64,000 nucleotides of DNA, from contig NZ_CP082164.1 in the NCBI RefSeq assembly GCF_023101685.1, forward strand, positions 3,844,001 to 3,908,000, given 5' to 3'. The stretch's first letter is position 1. Every line of letters begins with the position of its first letter. Source of the stretch: Bradyrhizobium sp. 186. Its GTDB lineage: Bacteria > Pseudomonadota > Alphaproteobacteria > Rhizobiales > Xanthobacteraceae. Positions 32,534 through 53,918 of the stretch are shown one piece after another. The notes beneath the pieces are model-generated. The model saw only the letters and a program-made list of their open reading frames with translations. It did no database searches and was not told where the DNA came from. The translations under genes and the position numbers were made by a program.

Positions 32534-32552
32534 TTGGTATACATAATGCCAA
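32534..32552 (-). promoter_or_regulatory. GntR-type operator, site 1 (CBS-panE-FAH operon)
   Basis: TTGGTATACATAATGCCAA, 34-52 nt upstream of the CBS start. One of six matches to YTGGYAT-N5-ATGCCAN in this window. Confidence 0.7.
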
Positions 32553-32630
32553 TCGTCAAGGACTCAATTTGGCTGATCCGAAAATTCTTGCGGCAGTCAA
32601 GCTGACGTTTGTCGCTCCCGGCAAAAAGAA

Positions 32631-32654
32631 AAGGGGCGCATCGCTGCGCCCCTT
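32631..32654 (-). terminator. Terminator after the first OxlT gene
   Basis: 10-bp arms AAGGGGCGCA / TGCGCCCCTT, loop TCGC; the minus strand continues TTCTTTTTGCC. Confidence 0.85.
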
Positions 32655-32680
32655 CTGACCGACGTGAAGGTGTGTGGTCG

Positions 32681-34003
32681 CTACGCCGTCTCGGTTTTGG
32701 CGTTGCCCGTCGCAGTGTTCGCGCTCTCGGCTTCCTTGCCGAGGATGAACGAGCGGCGCAGCGGCTTGATCACGAACAGTGCCATCAGCGCAGCCGTGGC
32801 GTTCAGCGCCACCGCCACCACGAACACGGCCTTCCAGCCGTAGGCAGTCGAGATCACGCTTGCGAGCGGGACCAGCAGCGAGGCGGTGCCCTTCGCGGTG
32901 TAAAGCATGCCGTTGTTGGTGGTCGCGAACTTCGAGCCGAAGGTGTCGCCGCAGGTCGCAGGGAACAGCGAATAGATCTCGCCGAACACGCCGAAGTAAA
33001 CCGCGGTCGCGAGCACGAACACGATCGGCACGTGACCGTAGGCCGACAACGCCAGCAGCATCACCGCGGCAGTGCCGAAGGCGATGAACATGGTGTGCTC
33101 GCGGCCGATCGTGTCGGAGACCCAGCCGAAGAACGGCCGGCCAAAGCCGTCGAAGATGCGGTCGAGCGAGATCGCAAAGGTCAGTGCCGCCATCTGGAAG
33201 CCCGCAAGCGTGACCGGCGTGTCGGCGATCTTGAAGTCGTGCGCGATCGGCGCGATCTGCGCCGCGGTCATCAGGCCGCCGGAGGCGACCATGACGAAAA
33301 CGAGGTACATTACCCAGAAAATAGGGGCACGCAGCACCTGCGGTGGCGTGAAATCGATCTTGGTCTGCGGCAGGTTGAGCTGCTTCTTTTTCGGCGGGAT
33401 CGCAATCCGCGGCGGCTGGATGAAGAAGGCGAGCACGAACACGATCAGTCCCTGGCCGATGCCGAACTTCAAGAACGCGCTCTGGTAGCCGCTCGATGCG
33501 ATCATCATCGCGATCGGCACCACGGTAAGCGCGGCGCCCGCGCCGAAGCCTGCGGCAGTCGCGCCAGCGGCAAGACCTCGGCGATCGGGAAACCATTTTA
33601 GCGCGTTGCCGACGCAAGTACCGTAGACCGCGCCCGCGCCCATGCCGCCGACGACCGCGGCCGCATAGAGCAGGGTGAGCGAGTCGGCATACGAGTTAAG
33701 AATCCACGAGAGCGCGATCATCACGCCGCCGAACACGATGACGATGCGCGGGCCGTATTTGTCGACGAACCAGGCTTCGACCGGCACCAGCCAGGTCTCG
33801 GTGACGACGAAGATGGTGAAGGCGAGCTGGATCGCCGCGCGTCCCCAATGGTGGGCCGCATCGATTGGATCGACGAACAGCGTCCAGCCATATTGCAGGT
33901 TGGCGATCATCGCCATGCAGACGATGCCCATGCCGAGTTGGAACCAACGGAAACCGGTTCGAAGGGGCGCAGCGGTCACGGCGCCATCCGTGCTGGAAAT
34001 CAT
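32681..34003 (-). CDS. oxlT: Oxalate/formate antiporter family (MFS), copy 1
   Basis: 440 residues, twelve predicted membrane helices, OFA branch of the major facilitator family. It carries the branch-typical segments YGWTLFVDPI, VYGTCVGNALKWFPDRRG and FGEIYSLFPATCGDTFGSKF. OxlT exchanges oxalate for formate across the inner membrane. The ATG at 34003 follows GGGAGG; the frame continues to 34129. A GntR-type site lies 101-119 nt upstream. A paralogue lies just upstream at 34265-35551. The substrate assignment rests on family plus the oxc/frc genes in the same regulon. Confidence 0.85.
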   Translation of the reverse strand: MISSTDGAVTAAPLRTGFRWFQLGMGIVCMAMIANLQYGWTLFVDPIDAAHHWGRAAIQLAFTIFVVTETWLVPVEAWFVDKYGPRIVIVFGGVMIALSWILNSYADSLTLLYAAAVVGGMGAGAVYGTCVGNALKWFPDRRGLAAGATAAGFGAGAALTVVPIAMMIASSGYQSAFLKFGIGQGLIVFVLAFFIQPPRIAIPPKKKQLNLPQTKIDFTPPQVLRAPIFWVMYLVFVMVASGGLMTAAQIAPIAHDFKIADTPVTLAGFQMAALTFAISLDRIFDGFGRPFFGWVSDTIGREHTMFIAFGTAAVMLLALSAYGHVPIVFVLATAVYFGVFGEIYSLFPATCGDTFGSKFATTNNGMLYTAKGTASLLVPLASVISTAYGWKAVFVVAVALNATAALMALFVIKPLRRSFILGKEAESANTATGNAKTETA

Positions 34004-34103
34004 CAACAACCTCCCAAGGCGCCTGTCTGGTCGCAAACACTGCTGCCAAGATGACTTAGTGTCGCAAATATTGTGGCTTATCGTCGCAAGCGCGGCGGGG
34101 ACC

Positions 34104-34122
34104 TTGGTATACCATATTCCAG
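34104..34122 (-). promoter_or_regulatory. GntR-type operator, site 2 (first oxlT)
   Basis: TTGGTATACCATATTCCAG, upstream of the oxlT copy at 32681-34003; right arm less perfect than the others. Confidence 0.65.
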
Positions 34123-34211
34123 AATGCAAGCCTTAACTGGCGCCCTGGCGCAAAGAAAATGCGCAGTTCCGTTCGGATTATTGGAATCGAGAAGGCTTTG
34201 CGCAAACGAAA

Positions 34212-34235
34212 ACGCCCGGCCGCGAGGCCGGGCGT
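34212..34235 (-). terminator. Terminator after the second OxlT gene
   Basis: 10-bp arms ACGCCCGGCC / GGCCGGGCGT with a 4-base loop; the minus strand continues TTTCGTTTG. It lies 30 nt beyond the stop. Confidence 0.85.
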
Positions 34236-34264
34236 CATGCGCGAGATAGCGCTTGTGAGGCGTA

Positions 34265-35551
34265 TCAGACGGTCGATTTCGCGACTACGATCTTGCGCCA
34301 GGGCTTGAGCACCGCGATCGCGAGCAGCGAAGCCAGGATGTTGGCGCCGGCCGCGATGATGAACACGTTGTCCCAATTGCCCGAGCCCTGCTGCATCAGG
34401 TTTGCGACCGGAACGAGGAGCGCGGCGGTGCCCTTTGCGGTGTAGAGCAGGCCCGCATTGGTGGTCGCGAACTTCGCGCCGAACGTATCGGTGCAGGTGG
34501 AGGGGAACAGCGAGTAGATCTCGCCCCAGGCGAAGAACACGAAGCCCGACAGCAGCACGAACCAGATCGGGTCGTGGCCCCAAAGATAGAGCATCCAGAT
34601 GCCGAAGCCTTCCATGCCGAAGGCGAGGAACATCGTGTTCTCGCGGCCGATCATGTCGGAGATCCAGCCGAAGAACGGACGCGTCAGGCCGTTGAGCACG
34701 CGGTCAATCGTCGCTGCGAACGTCACCGCCGTCATGGTCATGCCGATCAGTGTTACCGGAACGCTGTCGACCTTCCAGTCGACCGCGATCGGCTTCAGGT
34801 TCGCCGTTACCATCAGCCCGCCGGCGCCGACGATCACGAACATGAAGTACATCAGCCAGAAGATCGGCTGGCGCAGCACCTCGGTCGGCTGGTAGTTGCG
34901 ACGGCTCTGCACCAGCGCGGCATTCGCCACCACACTCGGCACCTGTCCCGGCTTCGGCGCCAGCAGGAAGAAGGCGAGGATGCAGATGATGATGCCTTGG
35001 CCCAGGCCGAAATAGAGGAAGGTGGTCTGGAATCCACTGTCCTTGATCATGGCCTGGATCGGCGCGACGGTGAGCGCGGAGCCGGCGCCGAAGCCTGCGG
35101 CCGTGATGCCCGCAGCGAGGCCGCGCTTGTCGGGAAACCATTTCAGCGCGTTGCCGACGCAAGTGCCGTAGACGCCGCCGGCGCCGATGCCGGCGATGAT
35201 CATGCCGAGATAGAAGCCGTTGAGCGTGGTGGCCTCCGCATTGATCACCCAGCCGATCGCGCAGAGCGCGCCGCCGATCAGCACGACGAGGCGCGGACCA
35301 TATTTATCGACGAACCATCCTTCGACCGGAACGAGCCAGGTCTCGAACAGCACGAAGAGCGTGAAGGCCCATTGGATCGAGGCGCGATCCCAGCCGAACT
35401 TCTTCTGGATGTCGGGGACGAAGAACGTCCAGCCGTATTGATAGTTGGCGATCATCACCATCGCCGCTACACCGACCGCCAATTGCGCCCAGCGATACGT
35501 GTCGCTAACCCGCGTGGCTGTAGGGGCCGTTGCCTGCACCATGTCCGTCAT
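34265..35551 (-). CDS. oxlT: Oxalate/formate antiporter family (MFS), copy 2
   Basis: 428 residues, twelve predicted helices, same OFA signatures as its neighbour (YGWTFFVPDIQKKFGWDRAS, VYGTCVGNALKWFPDKRG, WGEIYSLFPSTCTDTFGAKF). The two copies differ through most of their length, so the duplication is not recent. Each has its own GntR-type site and terminator, hence its own transcript. One copy may prefer oxalate and the other formate or a related acid; this cannot be read from sequence. Confidence 0.85.
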   Translation of the reverse strand: MTDMVQATAPTATRVSDTYRWAQLAVGVAAMVMIANYQYGWTFFVPDIQKKFGWDRASIQWAFTLFVLFETWLVPVEGWFVDKYGPRLVVLIGGALCAIGWVINAEATTLNGFYLGMIIAGIGAGGVYGTCVGNALKWFPDKRGLAAGITAAGFGAGSALTVAPIQAMIKDSGFQTTFLYFGLGQGIIICILAFFLLAPKPGQVPSVVANAALVQSRRNYQPTEVLRQPIFWLMYFMFVIVGAGGLMVTANLKPIAVDWKVDSVPVTLIGMTMTAVTFAATIDRVLNGLTRPFFGWISDMIGRENTMFLAFGMEGFGIWMLYLWGHDPIWFVLLSGFVFFAWGEIYSLFPSTCTDTFGAKFATTNAGLLYTAKGTAALLVPVANLMQQGSGNWDNVFIIAAGANILASLLAIAVLKPWRKIVVAKSTV

Positions 35552-35601
35552 AAAGCCTCCCGTGGCGCCTCTAATTTTTCTGCGAGCGCTGGAGCGGCAT
35601 T

Positions 35602-35620
35602 CTTGTATTCATTATGCCAA
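35602..35620 (-). promoter_or_regulatory. GntR-type operator, site 3 (second oxlT)
   Basis: CTTGTATTCATTATGCCAA, 51-69 nt upstream of the oxlT copy at 34265-35551. The left arm is degenerate. Confidence 0.55.
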
Positions 35621-35702
35621 GGTTCAAGCGCTGGTCCGGTCACCGTGCGCAAATGCCGCAGACCTTTCCGGCCCCGGCTGTGAATCGGATAACGCAAATA
35701 GA

Positions 35703-35727
35703 AATGGCCCCGTCGTGCGGGGCCATT
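35703..35727 (-). terminator. Terminator after the 45-residue gene
   Basis: 10-bp arms AATGGCCCCG / CGGGGCCATT around a 5-base loop; the minus strand continues TTCTATTTG. Confidence 0.8.
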
Positions 35728-35793
35728 CATCAAAAGTAGTATGTGGACTGTTCCGAAACCCGCGCGTCGCGGTCGCGGCGCGGAAGGCGTTGG

Positions 35794-35931
35794 TTACAGG
35801 CCGAAGCGGGGCAGGTCGCCGTTGTGATTCGAGATCTCGGCGCTCGCCATCAGGAAGCGGTCGACCGCCGCCATGAAACGGGCGAACAGCGAGGTGGAGG
35901 GGGCGAGCGCGACGGAGGCGGTCTTGGACAT
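35794..35931 (-). CDS. 45-residue microprotein of the oxalate regulon
   Basis: The minus strand encodes 45 residues starting MSKTASVALAPSTSLFARFM and ending NHNGDLPRFGL. The start has AAGGGA about 7 nt upstream. A promoter-proximal GntR-type site lies 56-74 nt upstream, and a strong terminator begins 67 nt after the stop, so it forms a complete single-gene transcript. The middle (TSLFARFMAAVDRFLMASAE) is an amphipathic helix. There is no membrane helix or signal peptide. The function is unknown; its context suggests a small partner or regulator in oxalate transport or metabolism. Confidence 0.8.
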   Translation of the reverse strand: MSKTASVALAPSTSLFARFMAAVDRFLMASAEISNHNGDLPRFGL

Positions 35932-36293
35932 GGGAAATCCCTTTCTTGAGACGGTCAGTACTGCTGTCTCATTTCGGAGGGTAATCTATGTATACCAGAT
36001 GCCACTGTCTATGCGTGTCATTGCATAGCAGCATCCGACCTACCGCATTGCAACATAATGACGCGTTAACGCGGCCGTTTCGGGCATAAAATTTCTGTCG
36101 TAACAAGGTGGTGGCCATAAAATGCCTTTCCCCGTCGCAGAAAGACGTGGAAGCAGGGGCGCGTTATTTCGCCCGAAGCGCACCGGCGCCACGATGGGTG
36201 CGAATTCCGGCCGGCCACAATGGACCGGGTCTTGGCAGGGCAATTCAAAGCCGCTAGTGGTCTGCCCCTTCCAATCATCTGTCAGAGTGGTTC
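35932..36293. other. Intergenic region with one operator
   Basis: Divergent promoter region between the microprotein and the Hsp70-like gene. The only element seen is the GntR-type site at 35987-36005; short open frames here look spurious. Confidence 0.5.
35987..36005 (-). promoter_or_regulatory. GntR-type operator, site 4 (microprotein)
   Basis: TATGTATACCAGATGCCAC, upstream of the 45-residue gene; the right arm ATGCCA is intact. Confidence 0.6.
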
Positions 36294-37625
36294 ATGTCGA
36301 GCGCCTCGTCCGCCGTCTCGATCGGCATCGATTTTGGAACCAGCAATACGGTCGTCGCACTCGCGGCGGACGATCGCCGGGTCGAAGCCATTCGCTTCGA
36401 TCATGGTGGGCAACGGCACAGCGTCTACGTGTCGGCCCTGTGCTTCTGGGAGGACCGCCCGGGAGCCGGAGCTCAGGCTGAAGGGGGCCCCTGGGCGATC
36501 GAGCAGTTTCTCGAAGGACGCCACATCAACCGCTTCCTCCAGTCGTTCAAGACCTTCGCCGGAAGTGCCAGCTTCAATTCCACCCAGGTGTTCCGGCAGC
36601 GCTACAAGTTCGAGGACCTCCTCGCGGCGTTCCTGCGGACGCTGGCACGCCACGGCAGCGACAGGTTCGGCTTCGAGGCGGCAAGCATCACGGTCGGCCG
36701 CCCCGTGCGCTTCGCCGGCGGCAATCCCGACGAGGCGCTGGCGATGCAGCGCTATCGGGCCGCGTTCGAACGGCTGGGCGCCGGCCACGCGCGCTATGTC
36801 TACGAGCCTGTGGGAGCAGCGTTCTCCTTCGCCCGCCGGCTGGAGCGCGATGCCACCGTCTTGGTTGCGGATTTCGGCGGCGGCACCAGCGATTTTTCCG
36901 TGATGCGTTTCTCGCGAGCAGGCGGCAACTTGCGCGCCGAGCCGCTCGGCCATGCCGGCATCGGCATCGCGGGCGACACCTTCGATTACCGCATCGTCGA
37001 CCACGTCGTCTCGCCGCGGCTGGGAAAAGGCTCCAGCTTTCGCTCGTTCGACAAGGTGCTGCCGATCCCCAACAGTCACTACACCAACCTCGCGCGCTGG
37101 CATCAACTCGCGCTGATGAAGAGCAACGGCGATTTGCGCGAGCTGCGGGAGCTTTCGCGCACCGCGCTGAAGCCGGCCCTGCTTCAGGATTTCATCACCA
37201 TCGTCGACTTCGACCTCGGCTTTTCGCTGTACCGCGCGGTGTCCGACGCCAAGGTCGCGCTGTCGGCCCGGGATGAGGTGGACTTCCACTTCAATGGCGG
37301 CGGCGTCGACATTCGCTCGACCATCACACGGAAGAACTTCGAAGCCTGGATTGCCGACGATATCGCCCGGCTCGGCGCTACCGTCGACAAGGTGCTGGGC
37401 GAGGCCGGCATCACCGCGCGCGAGGTGGAGAAGGTGTTCTTGACCGGCGGGACCTCCTTCGTGCCCGCCGTCCGCCGGCTGTTCGCCGAGCGGTTCGGCA
37501 ACGAACGGCTGATGTCGGGGGACCAGTTCGAGTCGATCGCCTACGGCCTCGCCTTGATCGGGCACAGTCCCGACCCGGACCGCTGGACCGCAGCCGGCGG
37601 GCTCGAGTCGAGGGCGGGCGCGTAG
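36294..37625 (+). CDS. Hsp70-like ATPase (YegD type)
   Basis: 443 residues that form only an actin/Hsp70 ATPase: phosphate-1 motif IGIDFGTSNTVVAL (10-23), phosphate-2 VLVADFGGGTSDFSV (about 198-212) and adenosine motif VFLTGGTSFVPAVRRLF (about 380-396). The substrate-binding and lid domains of DnaK are absent. This matches the YegD group of Hsp70 relatives, whose clients are unknown. No DnaJ or GrpE gene lies nearby. It is a single-gene unit. Confidence 0.88.
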   Translation: MSSASSAVSIGIDFGTSNTVVALAADDRRVEAIRFDHGGQRHSVYVSALCFWEDRPGAGAQAEGGPWAIEQFLEGRHINRFLQSFKTFAGSASFNSTQVFRQRYKFEDLLAAFLRTLARHGSDRFGFEAASITVGRPVRFAGGNPDEALAMQRYRAAFERLGAGHARYVYEPVGAAFSFARRLERDATVLVADFGGGTSDFSVMRFSRAGGNLRAEPLGHAGIGIAGDTFDYRIVDHVVSPRLGKGSSFRSFDKVLPIPNSHYTNLARWHQLALMKSNGDLRELRELSRTALKPALLQDFITIVDFDLGFSLYRAVSDAKVALSARDEVDFHFNGGGVDIRSTITRKNFEAWIADDIARLGATVDKVLGEAGITAREVEKVFLTGGTSFVPAVRRLFAERFGNERLMSGDQFESIAYGLALIGHSPDPDRWTAAGGLESRAGA

Positions 37626-37668
37626 CCCCACAGCCATGCGGCCGCCCGCGCCCTTTCTCGTCCTGGCC

Positions 37669-38112
37669 CTATTGATTGATCTCGGGCTCGACGAGCCGTG
37701 CCAAGTTCCGTAGCGATTCCTGCCAGCCGAGATAACAGGCTTCCGGTGGAATGACGTCCGGTATGCCCGCCTGCGTGATATCCAGCTCGGTGCCGACGGA
37801 GACTTTCTTCAGCGTCACGGTCACCTGAATTTCGCCGGGCAAATTGGGGTCGTCGAATTTGTCGGTGTAGCGCAGCCGTTCGCTCGGGACGAGCTCGACA
37901 TATTCGCCGCCGAACGCGTGGCTGTTGCCCGTCGTGAAGTTGCGGAACGACATTCTAAACGTGCCGCCGACCTTGGGCTCCAAATGATGCACCGTGCAGG
38001 CAAAGCCGTTCGGCGGCAGCCATTTCGCAAGCGCATCCGCCTCGAGGAAAGCGCGATAGATTTTCTCCGGGCTGGTCGTCAGAACGCGGTGCAGACGTAC
38101 GGTGCTGGGCAT
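37669..38112 (-). CDS. SRPBCC / AHSA1-family protein
   Basis: 147 residues of the Bet v1-like (START) fold. The family start VLTTSPEKIYRAFLEADALA, KWLPPNGF and the end ACYLGWQESLRNLARLVEP are typical of the 'activator of Hsp90 ATPase' homologues found widely in bacteria. It has a hydrophobic cavity for a small ligand. The ATG at 38112 has GAGG 9 nt upstream; others at 38121 and 38127 are possible. The reaction, if any, is unknown. Confidence 0.85.
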   Translation of the reverse strand: MPSTVRLHRVLTTSPEKIYRAFLEADALAKWLPPNGFACTVHHLEPKVGGTFRMSFRNFTTGNSHAFGGEYVELVPSERLRYTDKFDDPNLPGEIQVTVTLKKVSVGTELDITQAGIPDVIPPEACYLGWQESLRNLARLVEPEINQ

Positions 38113-38254
38113 ATTCGTCATCCTCATGAATTGATGGGCCCGACGTTGACGTCTGTTGCCCCTTCATGCCCCGAGGACGAACGAGACGTTGCCGGTCCGA
38201 CACGACATCTCGGATTTCTTGCCGGCTTTTTTGGGGAGCGCCCGGCCGGACCAG

Positions 38255-38944
38255 CTAAACTGCCGCCACATCCGGCGGCGTCATTGTAAACGCCAATCTG
38301 TAGCGGCCGATGGTCGGATTGTTCCGCGCGCCTGCGACGTGAAGCGCTGGCGGCGAGAGCTTGTCGGCGACCACGCGCTCGACCACACCGGCATCGTACC
38401 CTGACAGCAGGATGATCCAGTCGGCGGCGCCGTCCTTGCCGCGGATCTGCTGCTCGGTCGTGGGCGAGCTCGTCCTGGGTGTGTCGGTCAGGAGGAGGTG
38501 GCCGCCCGTCAGTCCCGGTTGCGGCGCCAGCGTGCGGAGGATATCGGAGAGTTGTGCCTGCAACTCAGTCTCCCGTCCGGTCTCCGGCGAGAGCCTGATG
38601 GTGGCGAGCGAGGTCGCAACGCCGCCGCCAAAACTCGCCGCGACCCGGCACTGGCTGCGGACCATGCCGCGATGATGTGGCATCATCTTGGTCGACCATG
38701 GTGTCGGTGCGTTAAGTCGGTCGAGATATCCGCGCAACGTGAGGACTTCGTATTGCTCCAGCTCGTAGAGCACGAAGAAGCCATCAGCATCATCGGTGCT
38801 GGTCCATCGCGAGCCGCGCCGGAAGCCGGGAATGCTCATCCGCTCCGGGAAATGCTCGTGCGAATGCCAGTCGCCGAACTCCGCGCGTTGCTCGGGGCGG
38901 ACGTTCCACCACATTGCGACGGCCGCCTTGCCCAACAATGACAT
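38255..38944 (-). CDS. Hypothetical protein, EthD/Dabb-like
   Basis: 229 residues. The first half (WWNVRPEQRAEFGDWHSHEH, FPERMSIPGFRRGSRW, FFVLYELEQYEVLTL) looks like a ferredoxin-like dimeric alpha-beta barrel, with WHSHEHFPER as its conserved patch; the second half may repeat the fold. Proteins of this type serve as small monooxygenases or lyases in catabolic clusters. The reaction is unknown. It ends the minus-strand run below the FAH and DUF1185 genes. Confidence 0.6.
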   Translation of the reverse strand: MSLLGKAAVAMWWNVRPEQRAEFGDWHSHEHFPERMSIPGFRRGSRWTSTDDADGFFVLYELEQYEVLTLRGYLDRLNAPTPWSTKMMPHHRGMVRSQCRVAASFGGGVATSLATIRLSPETGRETELQAQLSDILRTLAPQPGLTGGHLLLTDTPRTSSPTTEQQIRGKDGAADWIILLSGYDAGVVERVVADKLSPPALHVAGARNNPTIGRYRLAFTMTPPDVAAV

Positions 38945-39037
38945 GCTGACCTCGACTGCTCTCCGGCAATTGCTTTACAGCAGAGCCGCCGAGAACCAAA
39001 GGCCTAGCCGTTCCGGGCTACCGCAAGTCCGGGTGTC

Positions 39038-39622
39038 TCAACGCTGCCCGTCGTGAACCGAAATATCCGACGCGGAGAGCCCGCCGATCCGCGCATGCGG
39101 GCGTCCACCGGTTGCCATCACGAGACCAAAGGCGATTTCGTCGCGCCGGGGAGCATCCCATAGCGTCATCTCGGCCGTCCCGAAATGACTTCGGACATAA
39201 GCGGCGTGAATGTGACCAAGCGGGACCATGAGGCGCGTGCCTGCACCGCCGATGGTCTTTGCCGCCGGGACGATCGCCTTCGGCTGTCCGAGCACCTCGC
39301 GCATGCCTTGTCCCCCCGCCTCGTGCCAGACGGCGCCGTGCTCGAGCTCGCCGTCTTCGCCGACGATGATGCCCTTGCCGTAGGCTTCGACATGCCTTGC
39401 TCCCCCAAGCTGCGCGATCAGGCTCGTCGCGAGCTCGCGCCCAAGCTCGCGCAAAGCAGCTTGAAACGGCATCAGGTCCGGCTCGTAGCGTCCCGCGAAC
39501 GGATTGCGGATCACGGCAATGGCGGTGCCGACGAGCAGGGGCTTTTCGAGCCGGGGACCGCGCTCATGCCAGATCGTCTCGATACCGAGCGCGGTCTTCC
39601 GAACATCATAACTGGATGTCAT
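39038..39622 (-). CDS. DUF1185 (amino-acid-synthesis) family protein
   Basis: 194 residues from the ATG at 39622. The patterns AVIRNPFAGRYEPDLMPFQ, YGKGIIVGEDGELEHGAVWH and HIHAAYVRSHFGTAEMTLWD are typical of DUF1185. Structures of this family exist, but the reaction is unproven; members often occur in aromatic or organic-acid catabolic operons. It follows the FAH-family gene by 8 nt and is surely co-transcribed with it. Confidence 0.75.
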   Translation of the reverse strand: MTSSYDVRKTALGIETIWHERGPRLEKPLLVGTAIAVIRNPFAGRYEPDLMPFQAALRELGRELATSLIAQLGGARHVEAYGKGIIVGEDGELEHGAVWHEAGGQGMREVLGQPKAIVPAAKTIGGAGTRLMVPLGHIHAAYVRSHFGTAEMTLWDAPRRDEIAFGLVMATGGRPHARIGGLSASDISVHDGQR

Positions 39623-39630
39623 CCGCCGTC

Positions 39631-40494: not shown

Positions 40495-40531
40495 GGTGCG
40501 GCCTCAAAGATTGACGTTTTTCGATCTTGTG

Positions 40532-40547
40532 TATTATTTTCGAAAAT
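40532..40547 (-). promoter_or_regulatory. Second operator type, site 1 (FAH-DUF1185 operon)
   Basis: TATTATTTTCGAAAAT, whose 12-base core ATTTTCGAAAAT is a perfect palindrome. An identical 16-mer occurs at 41360-41375 on the other side of the GntR gene. Confidence 0.7.
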
Positions 40548-40587
40548 TTAGCCGAGCGCAAGTCCGTCGCGAACGAAATCGGACGCC

Positions 40588-41375: not shown

Positions 41376-41399
41376 ACAGGTCTGGCGAGGGGATTACTC

Positions 41400-45503: not shown

Positions 45504-46915
45504 ATGGTCTCACCCCGTATCAATGGTGTCGCCTCTCGCACCGTGCTGGCTGGTCGATCAGCACAGGCCGCGAGGACACGATCGACCTCACGGCCGGACA
45601 GGCCGATGTATCGGGCCGGGTCCGCGGCCGCTTCGATCTCATGCGGCGCGATGTGGGCCGTCACGGCCGGATCGCGCGAAAGGCTCTGGGCTAATGTCAG
45701 GCCCGAAGCGATGGCGTGCGTGCATGCCGCACTCACCATTTCGTGCGCATGATGGCGCCCGACGCGCGGCGCCAGCGCCATCATGACGGCCTCGGCGGCG
45801 ATGAGCCCCTGTGTCCGCCCGAGATTGGCCTGCATCGCATCGGGTCTGACGACCAGTCCGGTGCAGAGCCGAACGGCGTTATCCATGGCCCGGGAGACCA
45901 GCACGAACGCTTCCGGCAGCAGCAACCATTCGGCTTGCCACGGTCCCGTCGCCCGTTCATGGTCGTGGACCGAAGCGTCGAGCATGGCGCTTGCGAGCCG
46001 GCGCAGCGACACTCCGGTGCTGAGAATCTGCTCGCAGACGATCGGGTTTCGCTTGTGCGGCATGGTGCTGGAGGCGCCATGGCCATGGCCGCCTGGCTCC
46101 AGCACTTCGCCGACCTCGGTCTGCGCCATTAACGCGACATCGGTTGCGATCTTGCTCAGGGTCGCGGAGATCAGCCCAAGCAGGCAAACCGTCTCGGCCA
46201 AGCCGTCGCGCGCGGCATGCCATGCCACCAGCGGCTCGCCGAGTCCGAGTTCGCGGGCCAGCGCAGCGCGGACGCGGTCGCCATCGTCGCCGAGCGACGC
46301 GAAAGTGCCGACCGCGCCGCCGAACTGAACCTGCAGGACCCTTGGTACGAGTTCGGCGAGACGTTGCCTGTGGCGCAGCAGGCCCGACAGCCAGACGGAA
46401 ACCTTGAAGCCGAAGGTGATCGGGATCGCGTGTTGAAGTTTGGTCCTGCCGACCATGGGCGTATCGCGATGGGTACGCGCCAGATCCGCAATCGCCGATA
46501 TCAGGCGCTCCAGATCGCGGTGGATGAGCTCGAGCGCGTCGCGCATCTGCATCACGAGCGCGGTGTCCATGATGTCCTGACTCGTGGCACCCCAATGGAC
46601 GAATTCGCCATGGGGTTTACCGGTGAGCCGGATCAACTGCTCGACCAGATTCACGACCGGCAAACCAGCGCGCAAAGTGCCCGCGGCCAATTCGTCAAGA
46701 TCGAGTAGTTCAGTACGTGCAGCGGAGGCGATCGCAGCAGCAGCCTCGACAGGAATCACACCGAGCTGCCCTTGAACCTTGGCCAGCGCGACCTCGACCA
46801 GGAGCATGGATTCCAGTGAATTGCGCTCACCGAAAATAGCGCGCATCGGCGCGGTGCTGAAAATATCGGCGAGGTGACGGCTGCTGAAGACCGTTCCGGG
46901 TTCGAAACTCAGCAT
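45500..46915 (-). CDS. Fumarase/aspartase-superfamily lyase (PcaB-like)
   Basis: 471 residues. It has the superfamily signature SSTMPHKRNPIVCEQIL, the second conserved region VHWGATSQDIMDTAL with the catalytic His/Ser pattern, and GRTKLQHAIPITFG. Closest by pattern to 3-carboxy-cis,cis-muconate cycloisomerase (PcaB), although the adenylosuccinate-lyase branch looks similar. No other protocatechuate-branch genes (pcaC, pcaG/H) are present, so the true substrate is open. It is overlapped by the Bug gene and preceded by a glutathione transferase. Confidence 0.82.
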   Translation of the reverse strand: MLSFEPGTVFSSRHLADIFSTAPMRAIFGERNSLESMLLVEVALAKVQGQLGVIPVEAAAAIASAARTELLDLDELAAGTLRAGLPVVNLVEQLIRLTGKPHGEFVHWGATSQDIMDTALVMQMRDALELIHRDLERLISAIADLARTHRDTPMVGRTKLQHAIPITFGFKVSVWLSGLLRHRQRLAELVPRVLQVQFGGAVGTFASLGDDGDRVRAALARELGLGEPLVAWHAARDGLAETVCLLGLISATLSKIATDVALMAQTEVGEVLEPGGHGHGASSTMPHKRNPIVCEQILSTGVSLRRLASAMLDASVHDHERATGPWQAEWLLLPEAFVLVSRAMDNAVRLCTGLVVRPDAMQANLGRTQGLIAAEAVMMALAPRVGRHHAHEMVSAACTHAIASGLTLAQSLSRDPAVTAHIAPHEIEAAADPARYIGLSGREVDRVLAACADRPASTVREATPLIRGETI

Positions 46916-47508
46916 GGCCGTGTCGCGATCATGGATGACCGAACGCGCGCGCGTTCATACCAGTCAGCAAGCCTTGGTCTTTCGGAACGCCATGACAGAT
47001 GCCCCGCGCGAAAATCGAGATAGCCAAGTCCACAGGCGAGCCCGATGTCGCCGAGGTCGAAGCGCCGGTCATGGAGGTCGAAGCGGGCTTCAATCGATGA
47101 CAGCGTCCGCGTAATCGCTCGCTCCTGACGCGCAACCCAATCCGCCCAGCGCAACTCCGATGGCCTGCGCCCTTCGATTGCGCAGATGAAGGTTGCATCT
47201 ATCAGGCCCTGACACAGAGCGGCCCGTCCAAGGCAGAGGTGTCGCGCAGGCTCCTCTTTCGGGATGAGTTGCGAGTCGACGGTCAGGCCGTGCAAGGCCT
47301 GCCCGATCGTGTCGCTCTCGGTCACAAGCGTCCCGTTGGCGAGAACCAGTGCCGGCACTTTGGAGAGCGGGTTGGCGTCGATGAAGTCATGCGACTCGAG
47401 CCAGGGGTCGACCTCGACAAACTGAATCGCGTCGCTTATTCCGAGTTCGTGAATGGCAACCCTTACCTTGCGGGCGTATGGCGACGTCTGATTATAAAAT
47501 AGCCGCAT
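46909..47508 (-). CDS. Glutathione S-transferase-like protein
   Basis: 199 residues. Thioredoxin-fold N-terminus with SPYARKVRVAIHELG and NPLSKVPALVLANGTLVTES (cis-Pro and the Glu-Ser glutathione motif), then a helical C-terminal domain. The stop overlaps the lyase start by 7 nt. In aromatic pathways GST-like proteins isomerise ring-fission products (maleylpyruvate isomerase type); that role here is inferred. Confidence 0.85.
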   Translation of the reverse strand: MRLFYNQTSPYARKVRVAIHELGISDAIQFVEVDPWLESHDFIDANPLSKVPALVLANGTLVTESDTIGQALHGLTVDSQLIPKEEPARHLCLGRAALCQGLIDATFICAIEGRRPSELRWADWVARQERAITRTLSSIEARFDLHDRRFDLGDIGLACGLGYLDFRAGHLSWRSERPRLADWYERARVRSSMIATRPC

Positions 47509-48335
47509 AGGTCGGTGTCGATCCCTCCGTCGTCGCGCCCCATTGCGCAGCCGTACGGCTTGGCATCTATCAAGCCTAGATTACCCCTCCGTTTTGTAAA
47601 AATGCATTATTGCGATACATGCGTTCTGAATTGGAGAACGCTGTCAAAGGCGCCGAAAATTTCGGAATTCGCGATATCGCCAACTGTGATCAAGTTGGGT
47701 TGCAGGCGCGCGGCTTGGACGCCGCATGCGAGGCTGCTTTCGATATCAACATGCGCGTCCACGTGTTCGGCTTTGAGGGCATCGGTCAGATGGTTGAAGC
47801 CGGGTTCGCTATTTTGCCTCAAGGGGCGGTTCTTCCTTTATCTAGATAGTCGCAGCATCACGGCTATGACGCTTGACGAGCCCTGGGCGAACCGCACGCG
47901 TTTCAGGCAACGCTCCGACTGCGGCGATTGACGAGCTTGCGGCCGCCAAACGTGCCAGCAGGATTCGACCGGGCAGCCTTCCACCGCGAGTTCAATGCGA
48001 CCGTCGTGCAGTTCTTTCGCGAGCAGCTCGCGAGCGGTGATCGCTGAGCGCCCGGGCGAAGCTCATGTCGTCGCCGTCAAGCTTGCAAACGCTTGCGAAG
48101 GCTCCGTAGCCTCGCCTCTGAGCCTTCTGGGCATGTTCCGACGCCCTCACGGGCGCAATTAAAACCGGGCGAGCCTTGCAAATGACGATGATGAGGTATA
48201 CCTTAAAATCATTCGTTCAGCCGCTGTGCCTTGTTGAATGCGCCCGCGGGCTCCTTTTCCAGAGACATCGACGAGTTGAATCGGTTCTGCGTGAGCGTCA
48301 CGCGGACTGCGCGCATGTGCGCTTTGGAGAAGAAA
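47509..48335. other. Long gap with one gene remnant
   Basis: No intact gene supported. Short complementary open frames at about 47607-47850 on both strands lack recognisable motifs. A hydrolase-like tail is listed separately. The last 150 bases are probably the long 5' leader of the cold-shock gene. Confidence 0.4.
47943..48047 (+). pseudogene. Tail of a dienelactone-hydrolase-like gene
   Basis: The frame ending with TGA at 48045-48047 reads PPNVPAGFDRAAFHREFNAT and VVQFFREQLASGDR. An AFHREFNATVVxFFREHL end is common in dienelactone-hydrolase-like alpha/beta hydrolases. No catalytic residues remain upstream. A short match only, so moderate to low confidence. Confidence 0.4.
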
Positions 48336-48545
48336 ATGACGACAGGTACTGTGAAGTGGTTCAACGGCCAGAAGGGCTTTGGGTTCATTCAGCCCAACGA
48401 CGGCGGCAACGATGTGTTCGTTCACATCAGCGCGGTCGAGCGGGCTGGTCTTGCGGGCCTCGCCGAGGGCCAAAAGGTCAACTTCGAGGTCAAGACCGAC
48501 AAGATGCGGGGCAAGGTCAGCGCTGAGAATCTCTCGCTGGCTTGA
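48336..48545 (+). CDS. Cold-shock protein (CspA family)
   Basis: 69 residues, a single OB fold with both RNA-binding motifs: KGFGFIQ (RNP1) and DVFVHIS (RNP2). These proteins melt RNA secondary structure during cold or growth shifts. The ATG at 48336 follows GGAGA; the frame is open to 48231 but the extra N-terminus does not fit the family. A terminator follows at 48589. Confidence 0.95.
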
Positions 48546-48588
48546 GTTCTTTGTGCCGTTTCACCGATGTACTGAAACGGCCACGCTG

Positions 48589-48618
48589 CCCGCTTGATCC
48601 CTGGATCGAGCGGGTTTT
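48589..48618 (+). terminator. Terminator after the cold-shock gene
   Basis: Stem CCCGCTTGATC / GATCGAGCGGG (one G-T pair) followed by TTTT on the plus strand, 44 nt after the stop. Confidence 0.7.
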
Positions 48619-48642
48619 GTCCGTTCCGGAGCAGGGTGAAGG

Positions 48643-48885
48643 ATGAGCGCCAGGAAATCGGCAGAACCGTCACCCGAAGGTATCGCGCGCTCCAATCGCC
48701 AGCGTTTGGCATCTGAAGAAGGAGCGCGGGCAATGGCGGATGCCGAAAAGCAAGCCGTCGATGTTCGCAAGAACATGGCGCGGCTCCGAGAGCTGCGCGA
48801 AGCCAAGGAAGCGGCCGACGCAACTCTTCAAGCATCGTTGCCGGCGCCCACCCTGACGAAGCGCAAGAAGAAGGTGCCGCGATAG
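48643..48885 (+). CDS. Small basic hypothetical protein (80 aa)
   Basis: Begins MSARKSAEPSPEGIARSNRQ; the middle ADAEKQAVDVRKNMARLREL is a long charged helix and the tail is Lys/Arg-rich (TKRKKKVPR). No catalytic motif. The composition is that of small conserved rhizobial proteins that may bind nucleic acid; this is inferred from charge only. Confidence 0.6.
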   Translation: MSARKSAEPSPEGIARSNRQRLASEEGARAMADAEKQAVDVRKNMARLRELREAKEAADATLQASLPAPTLTKRKKKVPR

Positions 48886-48948
48886 TTGCCTTCAATAGCG
48901 CCGACGAAAATCTGGTGAGGGCCGGTCACATGCCAACGAGTGCGGGTC

Positions 48949-49164
48949 GTGCCTAGAGTCAAGTCGGACGGCGGTGGCACAATCACCTTTTTCCTTGCGC
49001 TTGGCGCAGGCCGACAGATGTGCCGACTTGCGACCACGTTTCAGACGCAGAAGCAGGCCTTCAGCTATCTTCAGAAATACCGGACGGAGTTCGAGCGCAT
49101 CGCGCGGACGCGGCTGGCTTCCGGGGAGCTGGAAGACGGGATCGTCGTGCTCTCGATGCTCTAG
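48949..49164 (+). CDS. Small conserved hypothetical protein (71 aa)
   Basis: Likely start is the GTG at 48949 (MPRVKSDGGGTITFFLALGA); another GTG at 48940 is in frame. The chain then reads CRLATTFQTQKQAFSYLQKY, FERIARTRLASGELEDGIV. One beta hairpin followed by helices is expected. It resembles short Bradyrhizobium proteins of unknown function. No operon partner. Confidence 0.6.
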   Translation: MPRVKSDGGGTITFFLALGAGRQMCRLATTFQTQKQAFSYLQKYRTEFERIARTRLASGELEDGIVVLSML

Positions 49165-49254
49165 ATCGGGGGCAGGCGTCGATTTCGACGCAGCGCCTTC
49201 AGCGCGATCCTCAATCGCCCGGACGTAGGATCGTAACCTCGCACAGAACGCCTT

Positions 49255-49437
49255 CTATTCGGAGCGACCTTTCGGCTTGGCCTCGCGGGCCAATCGCTCC
49301 GCTTTCAGCCGCTCGCGATTCTCGTTAATGGAGTGCTGATCCTTCGCATAGTCATTCATCGGCTTCTGCGTTGTGACAGGCTTGAATGCCTTGTTGGCTT
49401 CACGCTTGGCTCGATCAGAGGATTGATCTCTCAACAT
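49255..49437 (-). CDS. Small conserved hypothetical protein (60 aa)
   Basis: From the ATG at 49437 with GAGG about 6 nt upstream. MLRDQSSDRAKREANKAFKP, then KPMNDYAKDQHSINENRERL and KAERLAREAKPKG. Highly charged, probably helical, with a basic tail. A pattern common among rhizobial small proteins; function unknown. Confidence 0.6.
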   Translation of the reverse strand: MLRDQSSDRAKREANKAFKPVTTQKPMNDYAKDQHSINENRERLKAERLAREAKPKGRSE

Positions 49438-49748
49438 TTCGACCTCAATTTGATCAACGAGCGTGGTCCCGACGAGCGCCGGACGCGACGCCTCCTGCTT
49501 GCACGCCAATATGGATCAACTTGTCACCATCAGACAAGAAGGCAGCCAATTCTTCAGCGTTGGGCAGGTCTTCTGCGAGGCTCAGTCACTCGCTATGGAG
49601 GCGGCACGCTCGCATTTTCTGATAGCATGCCGGTGGAGAGGATAACAGCCGGCCACCGGATCTGTTCCTCCGGATCGGTCTTTAATTCAGAGTTGGCAGC
49701 GCGGGACGCGTGCCGATTAAGGGAAGCAGCCGTTACCAAAGCCAACAA
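49438..49748. other. Gap before the frc terminator
   Basis: Open frames here overlap one another without motifs; nothing supported. Confidence 0.4.
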
Positions 49749-49774
49749 AAAGGCCGCCGAAACCGGCGGCCTTT
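49749..49774 (-). terminator. Terminator after frc
   Basis: 11-bp arms AAAGGCCGCCG / CGGCGGCCTTT, 4-base loop, then a T-run (TTGTTGG) on the minus strand, 20 nt beyond the frc stop. Confidence 0.85.
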
Positions 49775-49794
49775 CGTGTCTGCGGATGAACCGC

Positions 49795-51072
49795 TTACTC
49801 CGCGGCCTGCTTCTGCGGCGGATCGAGCGCGCCGGACTTGTGGATATCGGCGACCTGGTGATCGCTGAAGCCGAGCACGCTGCGCAGGATCTCGTCGGTG
49901 TGCTCGCCGAGCAGGGGAGAGCGCTCCACGTCGCTCGGTGAGTCCGACAGCTTGATCGGATTGCCGACCGAGATGTACTTGCCGCGGGTGGGATGGTCGA
50001 CTTCGACCACGGTGCCAGTGGCGCGCAACGACTGGTCCTCGATGATCTCCTTCATCGACAGGATCGGACCGCAGGGGATGTCGTCCTTGTTGAGGATTTC
50101 CATCGCCTCGAACTTGGTCTTGGTCATGGTCCACTGCTCGACGCGTGCGAAGATCTCGTTGAGGCGCGACAGCCGGGCCGGCGGCTTGGCGTAGTCGGGA
50201 TGGGTCTTCCAGCCGGGTTCGCCTATCACGTCGCAAATCTTTTCCCAGACCGGCGCCTGGGTGATGAAATAGAGGTAGGCGTTGGGATCGGTCTCCCAGC
50301 CCTTGCACTTGACGATGCGGCCGGGCTGGCCGCCGCCGGAATCATTGCCGGCGCGCGGCACGGCTTCGCCGAACGGAATGCCTTCGCCATACTGGCTATA
50401 TTCCTTCAGCGGGCCATAGGCGAGGCGCTGCTGGTCGCGCAGTTTTACGCGCGCGAGGTTGAGCACGCCGTCCTGCATCGCAGCCGTAACCTTCTGGCCC
50501 CTGCCGGTGACGGTGCGCTGGTAGAGCGCGGTGACGATGCCGAGCGCGAGGTGCAGGCCGGTGCCGCTGTCGCCGATCTGCGCGCCGGTCACGAGCGGCA
50601 GGCCATCGCGGAAGCCGGTGGTGGAAGCGGCGCCGCCGGTGCACTGCGCGACGTTCTCATAGACCTTGCAGTCTTCGTACGGCCCGGGACCAAAACCCTT
50701 GATCGAGGCGACGATCATCTTCGGGTTGATCGCCTGGATCTTCTCCCAGGGGAAGCCCATGCGGTCGAGCACGCCGGGGCCGAAATTCTCCACCAGCACG
50801 TCGCACTTCTTGATCAGCTCGGTGAGGACTTCCTTGCCCTTGGGGTTCTTGGTGTCGAGGGTGATCGAGCGCTTGTTGTGGTTGAGCATGGTGAAATACA
50901 GGCTGTCCACGTTCGGGATGTCCTGCAACTGGCCGCGGGTGATGTCACCCACGCCCGGACGTTCCACCTTGATCACGTCGGCGCCGAACCATGCGAGCAA
51001 CTGCGTGCAGGTCGGTCCGGACTGGACGTGGGTGAAGTCGAGAATGCGAACGCCCGCGAGCGCTTTGGTCAT
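49795..51072 (-). CDS. frc: Formyl-CoA:oxalate CoA-transferase
   Basis: 425 residues, family III CoA-transferase of the length of Oxalobacter Frc. Start [20 protein letters not shown], then [12 protein letters not shown] and [14 protein letters not shown]. The catalytic Asp is in [15 protein letters not shown], and the glycine loop region is around [13 protein letters not shown]. It moves CoA from formyl-CoA to oxalate, giving oxalyl-CoA for Oxc and releasing formate. It lies downstream of oxc, 148 nt away, with a repeat element between. Confidence 0.95.
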
Positions 51073-51132
51073 CGTGTTGCTCCGTACTCTGTCTGCCCCT
51101 GCATCCGCAGGGAATAATGGGTTGAACGGGGA

Positions 51133-51219
51133 CTAAAGCGCGATGGTCATCGCGCTTTAGCTTTTTGTTTGCGCATGATCTTTTCGGAAAACCGCTTCAC
51201 ACTTTTCCGGATCATGCGT
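51133..51219. repeat. Palindromic repeat element between frc and oxc
   Basis: A hairpin with 12-bp arms CTAAAGCGCGAT / ATCGCGCTTTAG is followed by CTTTTTGTTT. A second imperfect palindrome then starts GCATGATC and ends GATCATGC (51173-51217). Such two-hairpin elements recur in rhizobial intergenic regions. The first hairpin plus T-run would terminate transcription on the plus strand, opposite to the oxc-frc genes. Confidence 0.65.
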
Positions 51220-51220
51220 T

Positions 51221-52954
51221 TTACTTTTTCTTCTGCAAGACGCTCTGCGGATTGAGGTTGCCGATGCGGCCGCTCTCCGAGCCCGCAGCCGGATCGATCA
51301 CCGCATTAATGAGCGTCGGCTTGCCCGAGGCCATCGCCTCGTTGACGGCGCGCTTGAGCTCGTCGGGCGAGGTGGCATTCACGCCGACGCCGCCGAAGGC
51401 TTCCATCATCTTGTCGTAGCGCGCGCCCTTGACGAACACGGTCGTCGCCGGATCGGCGTTGGCGCTGTTGACGTCGGTGCCGCGATAGATGCCGTCATTG
51501 TTGAAGATGACGATGCAGATCGGCAAATTGTAGCGGCAGATGGTCTCGACCTCCATGCCGGAGAAGCCGAAGGCGCTGTCGCCTTCCACCGCGAGCACGG
51601 GGTGGCCGGTCTCGAGCGCCGCCGCGATTGCCTGGCCCATGCCGATGCCCATCACGCCCCAGGTACCGACGTCGAGACGCTTGCGCGGCTTGTACATGTC
51701 GATGACGCCGCGGGCGAGGTCGAGCGTGTTGGCGCCCTCGTTGACGAGGATCGCCTCGGGATGCTCCTTGATGACGTTCTTCAGCACGCCGAGCGCGCCG
51801 TGATAGTCCATCGGCGACTTGTTGTTCATGAGCTTCGGCGCCATCTTGGCGACGTTCTCTTCGCGCTTGGACACAATTGCCTTGGTCCATTCGGCCGGCG
51901 GGGCGGTCCAGCTTGAACCCATCGCCTGGTTGAACGCCGAGACGACGGAGCCGATGTCGCCGACGACGGGCGCGACGATCTCGACGTTGGAGTCCATCTC
52001 CCTCGGCTCGATGTCGACCTGGATGAATTTCTTGGGCGCTTCGCCCCAGCTCTTGCCCTTGCCGTGCGAGAGCAGCCAGTTCAGCCGCGCGCCGATCAGC
52101 ATCACCACGTCGGCCTCTTTCAGCACCGTCGAGCGGGCCGCACCGGCGCATTGCGGATGGTTGTCGGCGAGAAGACCCTTGGCCATGCTCATCGGCAGGA
52201 ACGGGACGCCGCTCTTCTCGACGAAGCTCTTAATCTCTTCATCCGCCTGCGCGTAGGCGGCGCCCTTGCCGAGGATGATCAACGGACGTTTTGCACTCTT
52301 GAGCACGTCGAGCGCGCGCTTGACGGAGGCGGACGAGGGGATCTGCGCAGGCGCCGCGTCGATCACCTTGACCAGTGATTTCTGGCCGGCATCGGCGTTC
52401 ATCACCTGGCCGAACAGCTTTGCCGGCAGGTCAAGATAGACGCCGCCCGGACGGCCGGAGACCGCGGCACGGATGGCGCGGGCGAGACCGATGCCGATGT
52501 CCTGGGCGTGCAGCACGCGATAGGCCGCCTTGCACAGCGGCTTGGCGATCGCGAGCTGGTCCATCTCTTCATAGTCGCCTTGCTGGAGGTCGACGATCTC
52601 GCGCTCGGAGGAGCCCGAGACCAGGATCATCGGATAGCAGTTGGTGGTGGCGTGAGCGAGCGCGGTGAGACCGTTGAGGAAGCCGGGCGCGGAAACCGTG
52701 AGGCAGACGCCGGGCTTCTTGGTGAGGTAGCCGGCGATGCCCGCAGCGTAACCGGCGTTCTGTTCGTGGCGGAACGAGATCACGCGAATGCCGGCGGCTT
52801 GCGCCATGCGGCCCAAATCCGTGATCGGGATGCCCGGCACATTATAGATGGTGTTGATGCCGTTCAGCTTGAGCGCGTCGATGACGAGATGAAAACCATC
52901 CGTCAATTCCTGCTCGGTGCCCGGTGCTTCGGACTTGGTCGCGGTATTCAGCAT
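51221..52954 (-). CDS. oxc: Oxalyl-CoA decarboxylase
   Basis: 577 residues, thiamine-diphosphate enzyme. The N-terminal Pyr domain has the catalytic Glu64 in [10 protein letters not shown], followed by the central domain. The C-terminal PP domain has the Mg/TPP motif from [11 protein letters not shown] to FNNDGIYRG. It decarboxylates oxalyl-CoA to formyl-CoA and CO2. It lies 80 nt after the GntR gene with no separate operator, so GntR, oxc and frc are probably one transcript. Confidence 0.96.
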
Positions 52955-53034
52955 GGGCCTTGTCTCCCTGGTCTCAAGGTACGGTTTTAGGTTTTGGGGG
53001 GCGAATGGCTCGCCCTTCTGGTGAACGTTGCTAG

Positions 53035-53763
53035 TTAAAAGAGTTCCTGACCATGCGCTTCGACGTAAGCGGCAAGGCCAAGGGTGTGGTCGCGGGCGCG
53101 CTTCTCGGCGAGCTCGGTATCGCGCGCTTCGAGAGCTTCGATCATGCCGAGATGCTCGGGCAGCGAGGTCGCGGTGCGGTCCTTCCGTCCGATCGTCAGT
53201 TGCCGATAGCCACGCACGTGCAACAGCAGATCGTTGGTGAGATCGACCAGCACCGGCGATTCCGACAGCGAGATCAGCGCCTGGTGGAAGGCGATGTTGG
53301 CACGCGAATATTCCTCGACGTGATCCTCGGGCAGGCGGTCCTTGCTGAAATCCTTGAAGTAGTCGCGCAGCGCCGTGATGTCCTTCTTGCGCGCGGTGGT
53401 CGTGATCAGGCGCGCGGCCATGCTCTCCAGCGCCGCCCAGGCCCGGATCATGTCGACGATCTCGCTCTTGGTCCGCCGCACCACCATGATGCCGCGGCGC
53501 GGCACGGTCTTGACGAAGCCGTCCTGCTCGAGCATCGCGATGGCTTCGCGGATTGGCGTGCGGCTGACGCCAAGACGTTCGGACAGCGCGCGCTCATCGA
53601 GCATCACCGGCTCGGGCGTCGAGTAGATGTCCATCTTGAGGATAGCTTCCTTCAAGGCGTCATAGGCCTTGTTCTTGAAGCTGCTCTCCGGGGCAATACG
53701 AACGATTGCGATGTCTGCCTCGGCCATGTTCGGCAACGCCTTGGTTGGTTTCCGCAGTGACAC
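53035..53763 (-). CDS. GntR/FadR-type regulator, probable oxalate regulator
   Basis: 242 residues from a GTG at 53763. Winged helix with [20 protein letters not shown] and [20 protein letters not shown], then an FCD domain ([33 protein letters not shown]). FCD regulators bind small organic acids, usually as repressors. It heads the GntR-oxc-frc operon. The operator proposed for it occurs twice between it and the divergent acyl-CoA synthetase gene and four more times near the transporter cluster. Confidence 0.9.
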
Positions 53764-53818
53764 GACGATTCTCCTCCAGTGGGAGTCGTCTTTTACAGGA
53801 ATATTAACTGGAAAGTTT

Positions 53819-53837
53819 TTGGCATACCAAATGCCAG
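53819..53837. promoter_or_regulatory. GntR-type operator, site 5 (gntR-oxc-frc)
   Basis: TTGGCATACCAAATGCCAG, 56-74 nt upstream of the GntR start. The arms TGGCAT / ATGCCA are a perfect palindrome around 5 bases. Confidence 0.8.
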
Positions 53838-53899
53838 CGTGTCAAGCTGCCTATATTTTGCAGCGTTCTAATCGATGCGCCGGCTTGACAAGTTGGCTT

Positions 53900-53918
53900 C
53901 TGGCATACCAAATGCCAT
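53900..53918. promoter_or_regulatory. GntR-type operator, site 6 (acyl-CoA synthetase)
   Basis: CTGGCATACCAAATGCCAT, a second perfect palindrome in the same 307-bp divergent intergenic region, 81 bp from site 5. The 17-base core TGGCATACCAAATGCCA is identical in sites 5 and 6. Confidence 0.8.

Follow-up and report, generated by a model that had tools for sequence, protein, structure and literature searches.

A palindromic operator and a GntR/FCD regulator predicted to link oxalate-use genes in Bradyrhizobium sp. 186

How are genes for oxalate use coordinated when they lie in two separate clusters? This question is raised by a 64,000-nucleotide stretch of the Bradyrhizobium sp. 186 genome (NZ_CP082164.1, positions 3,844,001 to 3,908,000), termed the window here, in which both clusters carry copies of a short palindrome and one encodes a GntR/FCD-family regulator. 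Plants and soils are rich in oxalate, and Koch et al. reportedly raised in 2014 that its use is perhaps tied to nodulation by Bradyrhizobium. In Burkholderia phytofirmans, the available text of one study ties oxalate use to root colonisation (PMC3886118). The oxalate pathways described for B. diazoefficiens (frc bll3156, oxc bll3157; PMC5996035) and Cupriavidus necator (frc-oxc, apbA2; PMC7486775) employ the same enzymes, with a GntR regulator absent from the main text of either paper; a literature search covering other than subscription papers returned no GntR regulator of oxalate genes among the matches listed. Here, we propose that the GntR/FCD protein encoded at 53035 is very probably a dimeric repressor of an oxalate-use regulon that acts through the palindrome TGGYAT-N5-ATRCCA and is released by an oxalate-related ligand.

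Six predicted operators and their conservation in the genus

A first reading of the sequence alone had placed six palindromes at 32534, 34104, 35602, 35987, 53819 and 53900, and all six are found there. The sites are looser than the consensus written for them, YTGGYAT-N5-ATGCCA: three fit exactly, two carry one mismatch and one carries two. The identical 17-base core claimed for the two sites in the gntR-acs gap is indeed present (TGGCATACCAAATGCCA). Conservation in orthologous promoters was assessed in 40 regions (643,886 bases) from the genus, chosen for carrying gntR and oxlT on one contig; a site was counted when it scored at least 18 bits and lay at most 260 bp upstream of the gene. The predicted operators, given without strand, and their counts are as follows.

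53819..53837, predicted operator 5' of gntR-oxc-frc: exact consensus; gntR 40/40 regions; CTTGACA 3 bases 5'
53900..53918, predicted operator 5' of acs: exact consensus; acs 40/40 regions; CTTGACA 9 bases 5'
32534..32552, predicted operator 5' of cbs-panE-fah: exact consensus; cbs 40/40 regions
34104..34122, predicted operator 5' of oxlT_A: one mismatch (ATTCCA); 24/24 regions in which an oxlT_A reaches 70% identity
35602..35620, predicted operator 5' of oxlT_B: one mismatch (CTTGTAT); 39/40 regions
35987..36005, predicted operator 5' of orf45: two mismatches (TATGTAT), the weakest of the six; 40/40 regions

A further match to the palindrome (53894-53911, 19.4 bits) shares bases with the acs operator and recurs in many near relatives.

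Conservation, on which the sequence-only reading had staked its regulon, is thus borne out for all six genes; the other 16 of the 40 regions have no oxlT_A of that identity. A matrix of the six sites gave its top matches at near-constant offsets 5' of the same genes throughout these regions. The expected placement upstream of gene starts also recurs in relatives, with centres at about 30 bases (cbs), 60 (oxlT_B), 65 (orf45, gntR) and 85-110 (oxlT_A). The counts above come from a second matrix, built from 50 distinct sites in the 40 regions, which yielded 301 matches of at least 18 bits, and 0 in the reversed regions. Over these 50 sites, selected for a six-site-matrix score of at least 20 bits, which favours the arms, positions G4, A6, T7, A13, T14 and A18 are invariant and the middle varies, giving TGGYAT-N5-ATRCCA, a 17-bp palindrome, as the core motif. 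A core consisting of the 10-bp palindrome TGGTATACCA was considered but is not supported, since variation falls on the inner positions and the outer arms stay constant.

Of the 301 matches, 21 lie away from the six genes. Seventeen of them occur where an insert separates orf45 from oxlT_B; in two such regions (L085, 5682-8806; L073, 9921-13454) the insert encodes a TctCBA tripartite transporter, with a site about 300 bases 5' of tctC. The insert with its own predicted operator is a candidate oxalate uptake system. Near the tctC genes of the window itself (43017, 44514), the matrix scan found no site of at least 12 bits. The remaining four matches fall in L086 and L100, and the L086 site precedes an oxalate/formate antiporter gene (530 bits, cut-off 335).

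Could the palindromes be fortuitous, or members of a repeat family? With up to two mismatches and both strands counted, the window holds 18 matches, against 3.62 ± 2.16 in 100 shuffles (maximum 11). Across 40 genomes, that of strain 186 included, 235 places match TGGYAT-N5-ATRCCA exactly, versus 9 for the backwards pattern. With the shuffles, the reversed regions and the backwards pattern all contradicting it, and nothing found in its favour, an origin by chance or repetition was rejected and has next to no probability.

The promoter surroundings suggest how the sites might act. In consensus sequences with upper case for bases present in at least 90% of rows, the CTTGACA elements of gntR and acs (41 rows each) are accompanied by TTGAC 5' of the cbs operator and CTTG 5' of the oxlT_B operator (41 rows each), and by CTTGC for oxlT_A (25 rows). 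The operator thus mostly stands behind a CTTGAC-like -35 box and over the spacer and presumed -10 box, an arrangement that suggests repression by promoter blocking. Because it covers the spacer and the -10 region, the latter not certainly identified, this is a fitting place for a repressor. The same protein acting as an activator, or dually, would be an improbable alternative: activating relatives exist, E. coli GlcC being called an activator in the available text of PMC11323563, and the acs operator stands 9 bases from its -35 element where that of gntR stands 3, but most operators begin right after the -35 box, so that a protein sitting there would obstruct the polymerase (the -10 boxes not being certain).

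Genes behind the operators, inside and beyond the window

The genes of the two clusters are these.

53035..53763, minus strand: gntR, GntR/FCD-family regulator of 242 amino acids, predicted to repress the regulon as well as its own gene; scores above the Pfam cut-offs for GntR and FCD
51221..52954, minus strand: oxc, oxalyl-CoA decarboxylase; TIGR03254 1057.8 bits, cut-off 739.4
49795..51072, minus strand: frc, formyl-CoA:oxalate CoA-transferase; TIGR03253 743.6 bits, cut-off 504.2
54071..56200, plus strand: acs, nucleoside diphosphate (NDP)-forming acyl-CoA synthetase of 709 amino acids; Pfam ATP-grasp_5, CoA_binding_2, Succ_CoA_lig, Ligase_CoA_2
32075..32512, minus strand: cbs, CBS-domain protein; Pfam CBS
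30960..32030, minus strand: panE/apbA homologue, probable oxalyl-CoA reductase; Pfam ApbA, ApbA_C; PRK06522.1-4 533.1 bits, cut-off 223
30175..30963, minus strand: fah, FAA-hydrolase-family protein; Pfam FAA_hydrolase
32681..34003, minus strand: oxlT_A, oxalate/formate antiporter of the major facilitator superfamily (MFS); TIGR04259 639 bits, cut-off 335
34265..35551, minus strand: oxlT_B, oxalate/formate MFS antiporter; TIGR04259 643.2 bits, cut-off 335
35794..35931, minus strand: orf45, conserved 45-amino-acid protein; match in 40/40 regions, 55-100% identity

For acs, no NCBIfam model reached its cut-off; orf45 has no Pfam match, and its one match in the strain 186 genome is itself. Matches to oxlT_B at E <= 1e-150 occur in 74 of 80 genomes, two of them (G015, G032) at only 57% identity. 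An IclR-family regulator gene adjoins acs (56337-57239).

The regulon was said to bring unknown genes into oxalate use. The genes do share the operator, and for panE the claim was understated, its product being probably an oxalyl-CoA reductase. This assignment follows from the analogy with C. necator apbA2, which lies near frc-oxc, was found by its similarity to M. extorquens panE2 and, when deleted, slows growth on oxalate, as stated in the available text of PMC7486775. In two Cupriavidus records, from species other than C. necator, gntR and frc have a 71% identical panE homologue as neighbour. In another genome of the genus (G010; locus L301, 2083-2099), a site lies about 70 bases 5' of an iclR gene that precedes a glyoxylate carboligase gene truncated at the region end; on its other side, at least about 550 bases away, stands a gene for a PanE 84% identical to that of the window. 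Such a position, with PanE on one side and the iclR-glyoxylate carboligase pair on the other, would be expected if PanE makes glyoxylate. A second site in that genome is flanked by genes for malic enzyme and gamma-glutamyltranspeptidase.

Scanning the strain 186 genome (10.77 Mb) with WKGYATNNNNNATDCCA, a pattern that covers the six sites, gave 19 matches and its backwards control 6. The 19 matches mark 14 places, of which the window holds six. Three strong sites lie beyond it: C1:8170580 (25.6 bits), C1:10258088 (27.4 bits) and C2:323711 (21.3 bits). Five weaker places (L103, L104, L105, L107, L012), at 12.9 bits or less or under 5, were excluded from the regulon. The third strong site precedes a porin gene (Pfam Porin_4) on the 359-kb second contig (L017; site 1501-1517, gene 1581-3014).

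The site at C1:8170580 is centred 55 bases 5' of a gene, here fdh1B, whose product matches 7e5z_B, the beta subunit of a tungsten formate dehydrogenase (E 6.2e-257). The next gene matches the alpha subunit 7vw6_A (E 3.8e-232; 417 amino acids, up to the end of locus L129), so that fdh1 has the 7e5z/7vw6-type layout of a fused NuoE-NuoF-like beta subunit followed by an alpha subunit. Judged by these matches, fdh1 is the enzyme type that oxidises oxalate-derived formate. The site at C1:10258088 lies 66 bases 5' of sucC (572.8 bits, cut-off 370), which stands behind mdh. A TTGC element 8 bases 5' of this operator resembles the elements of the other promoters.

Both sites recur in the genus. Thirty loci each, the best from 40 genomes, were screened for a site of at least 18 bits within 220 bp upstream. 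Before fdh1B, a site was present in 24 of 30 loci (19 at -46 to -82, five near -160), and before sucC in 29 of 30, with 0/120 in the control pieces for either gene; the one sucC miss (L180) belongs to G015, a genome in which an exact site precedes the other sucC copy by at most 300 bases. Operator columns are conserved at 0.94 and 0.99 in 19 fdh1B and 29 sucC rows, compared with 0.49-0.68 in the flanks.

Across 13 fully listed genomes, 73 places carry the exact motif: 44 within 32 kb of gntR, 13 before sucC, 6 before fdh1B and 10 elsewhere. Matches equally frequent across unrelated genes would have spoken against a regulon; instead, 63 of the 73 lie at the oxalate cluster, fdh1 or sucC. The proposed map linking two oxalate clusters is thus supported, and it was drawn too small, as it reaches past the window to fdh1 and sucC.

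The GntR/FCD regulator and its relatives

Which protein binds these sites? Of 80 genomes of the genus, that of strain 186 included, 79 encode an ortholog of the gntR product (87-100% identity), and its near relatives among named records are from Bradyrhizobium. The protein combines an N-terminal GntR winged helix (PF00392, 47.1 bits, cut-off 27) with an all-helical C-terminal FCD domain (PF07729, 77 bits, cut-off 24.3), and its AlphaFold2 model (mean predicted local distance difference test score 82.7) shows six helices after the wing. Three histidines of the FCD pocket, H160, H204 and H226, are candidate metal ligands and show at least 90% conservation among 27 sequences. The protein falls below the cut-offs for the phosphonate regulator PhnR (TIGR03338, 93.9 versus 271.5 bits) and for NanR (NF003011, 64.1 versus 260 bits).

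A fold search with the model returned 58 PDB matches at E <= 0.001, the best being FCD regulators and the top one 7u5q, a GntR-family protein of Brucella melitensis. PmiR (7xp1), Atu1419 VanR (6z74, 6za3) and Tm0439 (3sxy), also among the best matches, share the winged helix and FCD domain but serve other pathways and are 22-26% identical over aligned columns; the operator here is TGGYAT-N5-ATRCCA. GlcR of Paracoccus denitrificans is alike by description only: it too comes from an alphaproteobacterium, and as a GntR-type repressor it controls a C2-acid pathway, yet its target is glycolate oxidase, and the available text of PMC11323563 mentions no control of oxalate genes.

Co-occurrence ties the sites to this protein. 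Among named GTDB loci with GntR relatives, the best 80 of 584 were compared, 57 with a GntR of at least 40% identity and 23 below; neighbours were sought in flanks of up to 4 kb (frc at 50% identity or more, oxc at 60% or more) and sites of at least 18 bits within 350 bp upstream of gntR. An frc or oxc neighbour occurs in 46 of the 57 versus none of the 23, and an upstream site in 29/57 versus 1/23 (control segments, 2/272 and 2/98). These orthologs adjoin frc or oxc in alpha-, beta- and gammaproteobacterial records, the site-bearing ones being mostly alphaproteobacterial; in two Paraburkholderia loci (L238, L240) the upstream region of oxc instead carries a variant, GTGATATACAATATTCCA. The link between the sites and the GntR at 53035, resting on co-occurrence with this ortholog group, is thereby supported.

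Further genes of the predicted regulon neighbour gntR in the 57 loci: sucC (at least 55% identity) in 4, fdh1B in 3, tctC in 9, panE in 5 and fah in 4, each against 0/23 below 40%. Thus sucC (L258 from Azospirillum oryzae, L268, L270, L272) and formate dehydrogenase (L226, L267, L271), first met through the operator, join the gntR cluster itself in some bacteria. An oxalate cluster from another family (L109) contains two SucC-like genes (4729-5904, 7933-9135; 39% and 73% identical to SucC of strain 186) near oxlT, gntR, panE and fah.

Several gntR clusters, most with frc, carry a thiamine pyrophosphate enzyme only 23-27% identical to Oxc (L126 4250-5950, L128 1099-2826, L250-L252, L254, L259, L261, L263, L266, L275). 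The best models for the L126 and L128 enzymes, acetolactate synthase and 2-hydroxyacyl-CoA lyase, stay below cut-off. Such clusters may encode another route to formyl-CoA that this regulator also controls; the available text of PMC7176365 places a GntR gene beside a formyl-CoA-releasing lyase and GntR genes next to 2-hydroxyisobutyrate clusters.

Several points weigh against the proposed regulon. The second matrix, used for the later counts, was trained on the same 40 regions, themselves preselected for gntR and oxlT sharing a contig, and the 40/40 counts for gntR and acs overlap, as both occupy one gap. The promoter consensus of orf45 shows no clear -35 element. Six of the 30 fdh1B loci are without an 18-bit site, 5 of the 24 fdh1B sites lie near -160 rather than at -46 to -82, and the fdh1B and sucC rows used for column conservation were selected by site score. 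No 18-bit site lies within 350 bp upstream in 28 of the 57 orthologs, both Cupriavidus records included. Among 20 regions taken from the order's other families, where GntR is 48-61% identical and several regions stop at a contig edge, 9 have frc or oxc and 11 a gntR site. For sucC, the site outside the genus is present in 2 of 15 genomes with a GntR relative (E <= 1e-40) and 0 of 15 without, and the four loci with sucC near gntR have two weak sites (L270), one of 16.5 bits (L272) or none (L258, L268).

That about half of the distant orthologs have no visible site would also fit another FCD regulator binding the sites, with the neighbouring GntR coincidental or sharing them. The genome has 58 candidate GntR-like places (34 scored, one at E <= 1e-30), and similar half-sites occur for other FCD proteins. 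Against this, frc/oxc neighbours and upstream sites follow this ortholog group rather than paralogs below 40% identity, and gntR itself is preceded by a site in 40/40 regions, which makes a different regulator very improbable.

The sucC points lend more to a split in which the window sites belong to this GntR and the sucC site to another regulator with a similar motif, making the link to the tricarboxylic acid (TCA) cycle spurious: the sucC site occurs outside the genus in 2/30 genomes, and none of the four named loci has a strong site. However, both outside genomes with the sucC site carry a GntR relative, the proximity of sucC to gntR-oxc-frc is confined to loci of this ortholog group (4/57 versus 0/23), one locus (L267) has two strong sites (30.0 and 32.7 bits) between a 41% SucC-like gene and gntR, and the TTGC element resembles the other promoters. 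We regard such a split as rather unlikely.

Proposed mechanism and meaning for oxalate use

The sites, their positions, conservation and co-occurrence with the regulator are features of the DNA itself; from them we infer how the preferred repressor would work. A GntR dimer would bind the 17-bp palindrome just behind the -35 box, over the spacer and -10 region, and block RNA polymerase. The ligand would be a small carboxylate or CoA ester, most likely oxalate or oxalyl-CoA, that accumulates with oxalate or its precursors, enters the FCD pocket and releases the protein from DNA. Derepression would then supply exchange and uptake (the two OxlT proteins and, in relatives, TctCBA), activation and decarboxylation (frc, oxc, acs) and reduction to glyoxylate (panE), along with, from other chromosomal loci, formate oxidation (fdh1) and the sucC operon, perhaps supplying CoA thioesters. 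In arabinose-grown B. diazoefficiens, according to the available text of PMC5996035, Frc is more abundant, and Oxc is so in the cytoplasm-enriched but not in the membrane-enriched fraction. This would fit an oxalate-type effector, as the arabinose path runs through glyoxylate and oxalate.

We regard the regulon as a well-supported case of the GntR/FCD type, with the membership of sucC as the surprise. A further-reaching proposal is held tentatively, and we lean slightly away from it: an oxalate-responsive FCD repressor may exert direct control over oxalate uptake, formate dehydrogenase and the sucC operon alike, tying the succinyl-CoA pool to oxalate load, with orf45 and acs as functional parts.

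The defined operator provides a genome-wide map that places acs, cbs, fah, orf45 and the TctCBA transporter in the oxalate pathway, and it predicts a link from oxalate use to formate dehydrogenase and the TCA cycle. One conserved DNA switch thus seems to govern the oxalate genes of this soil bacterium, with its regulator probably encoded beside them.

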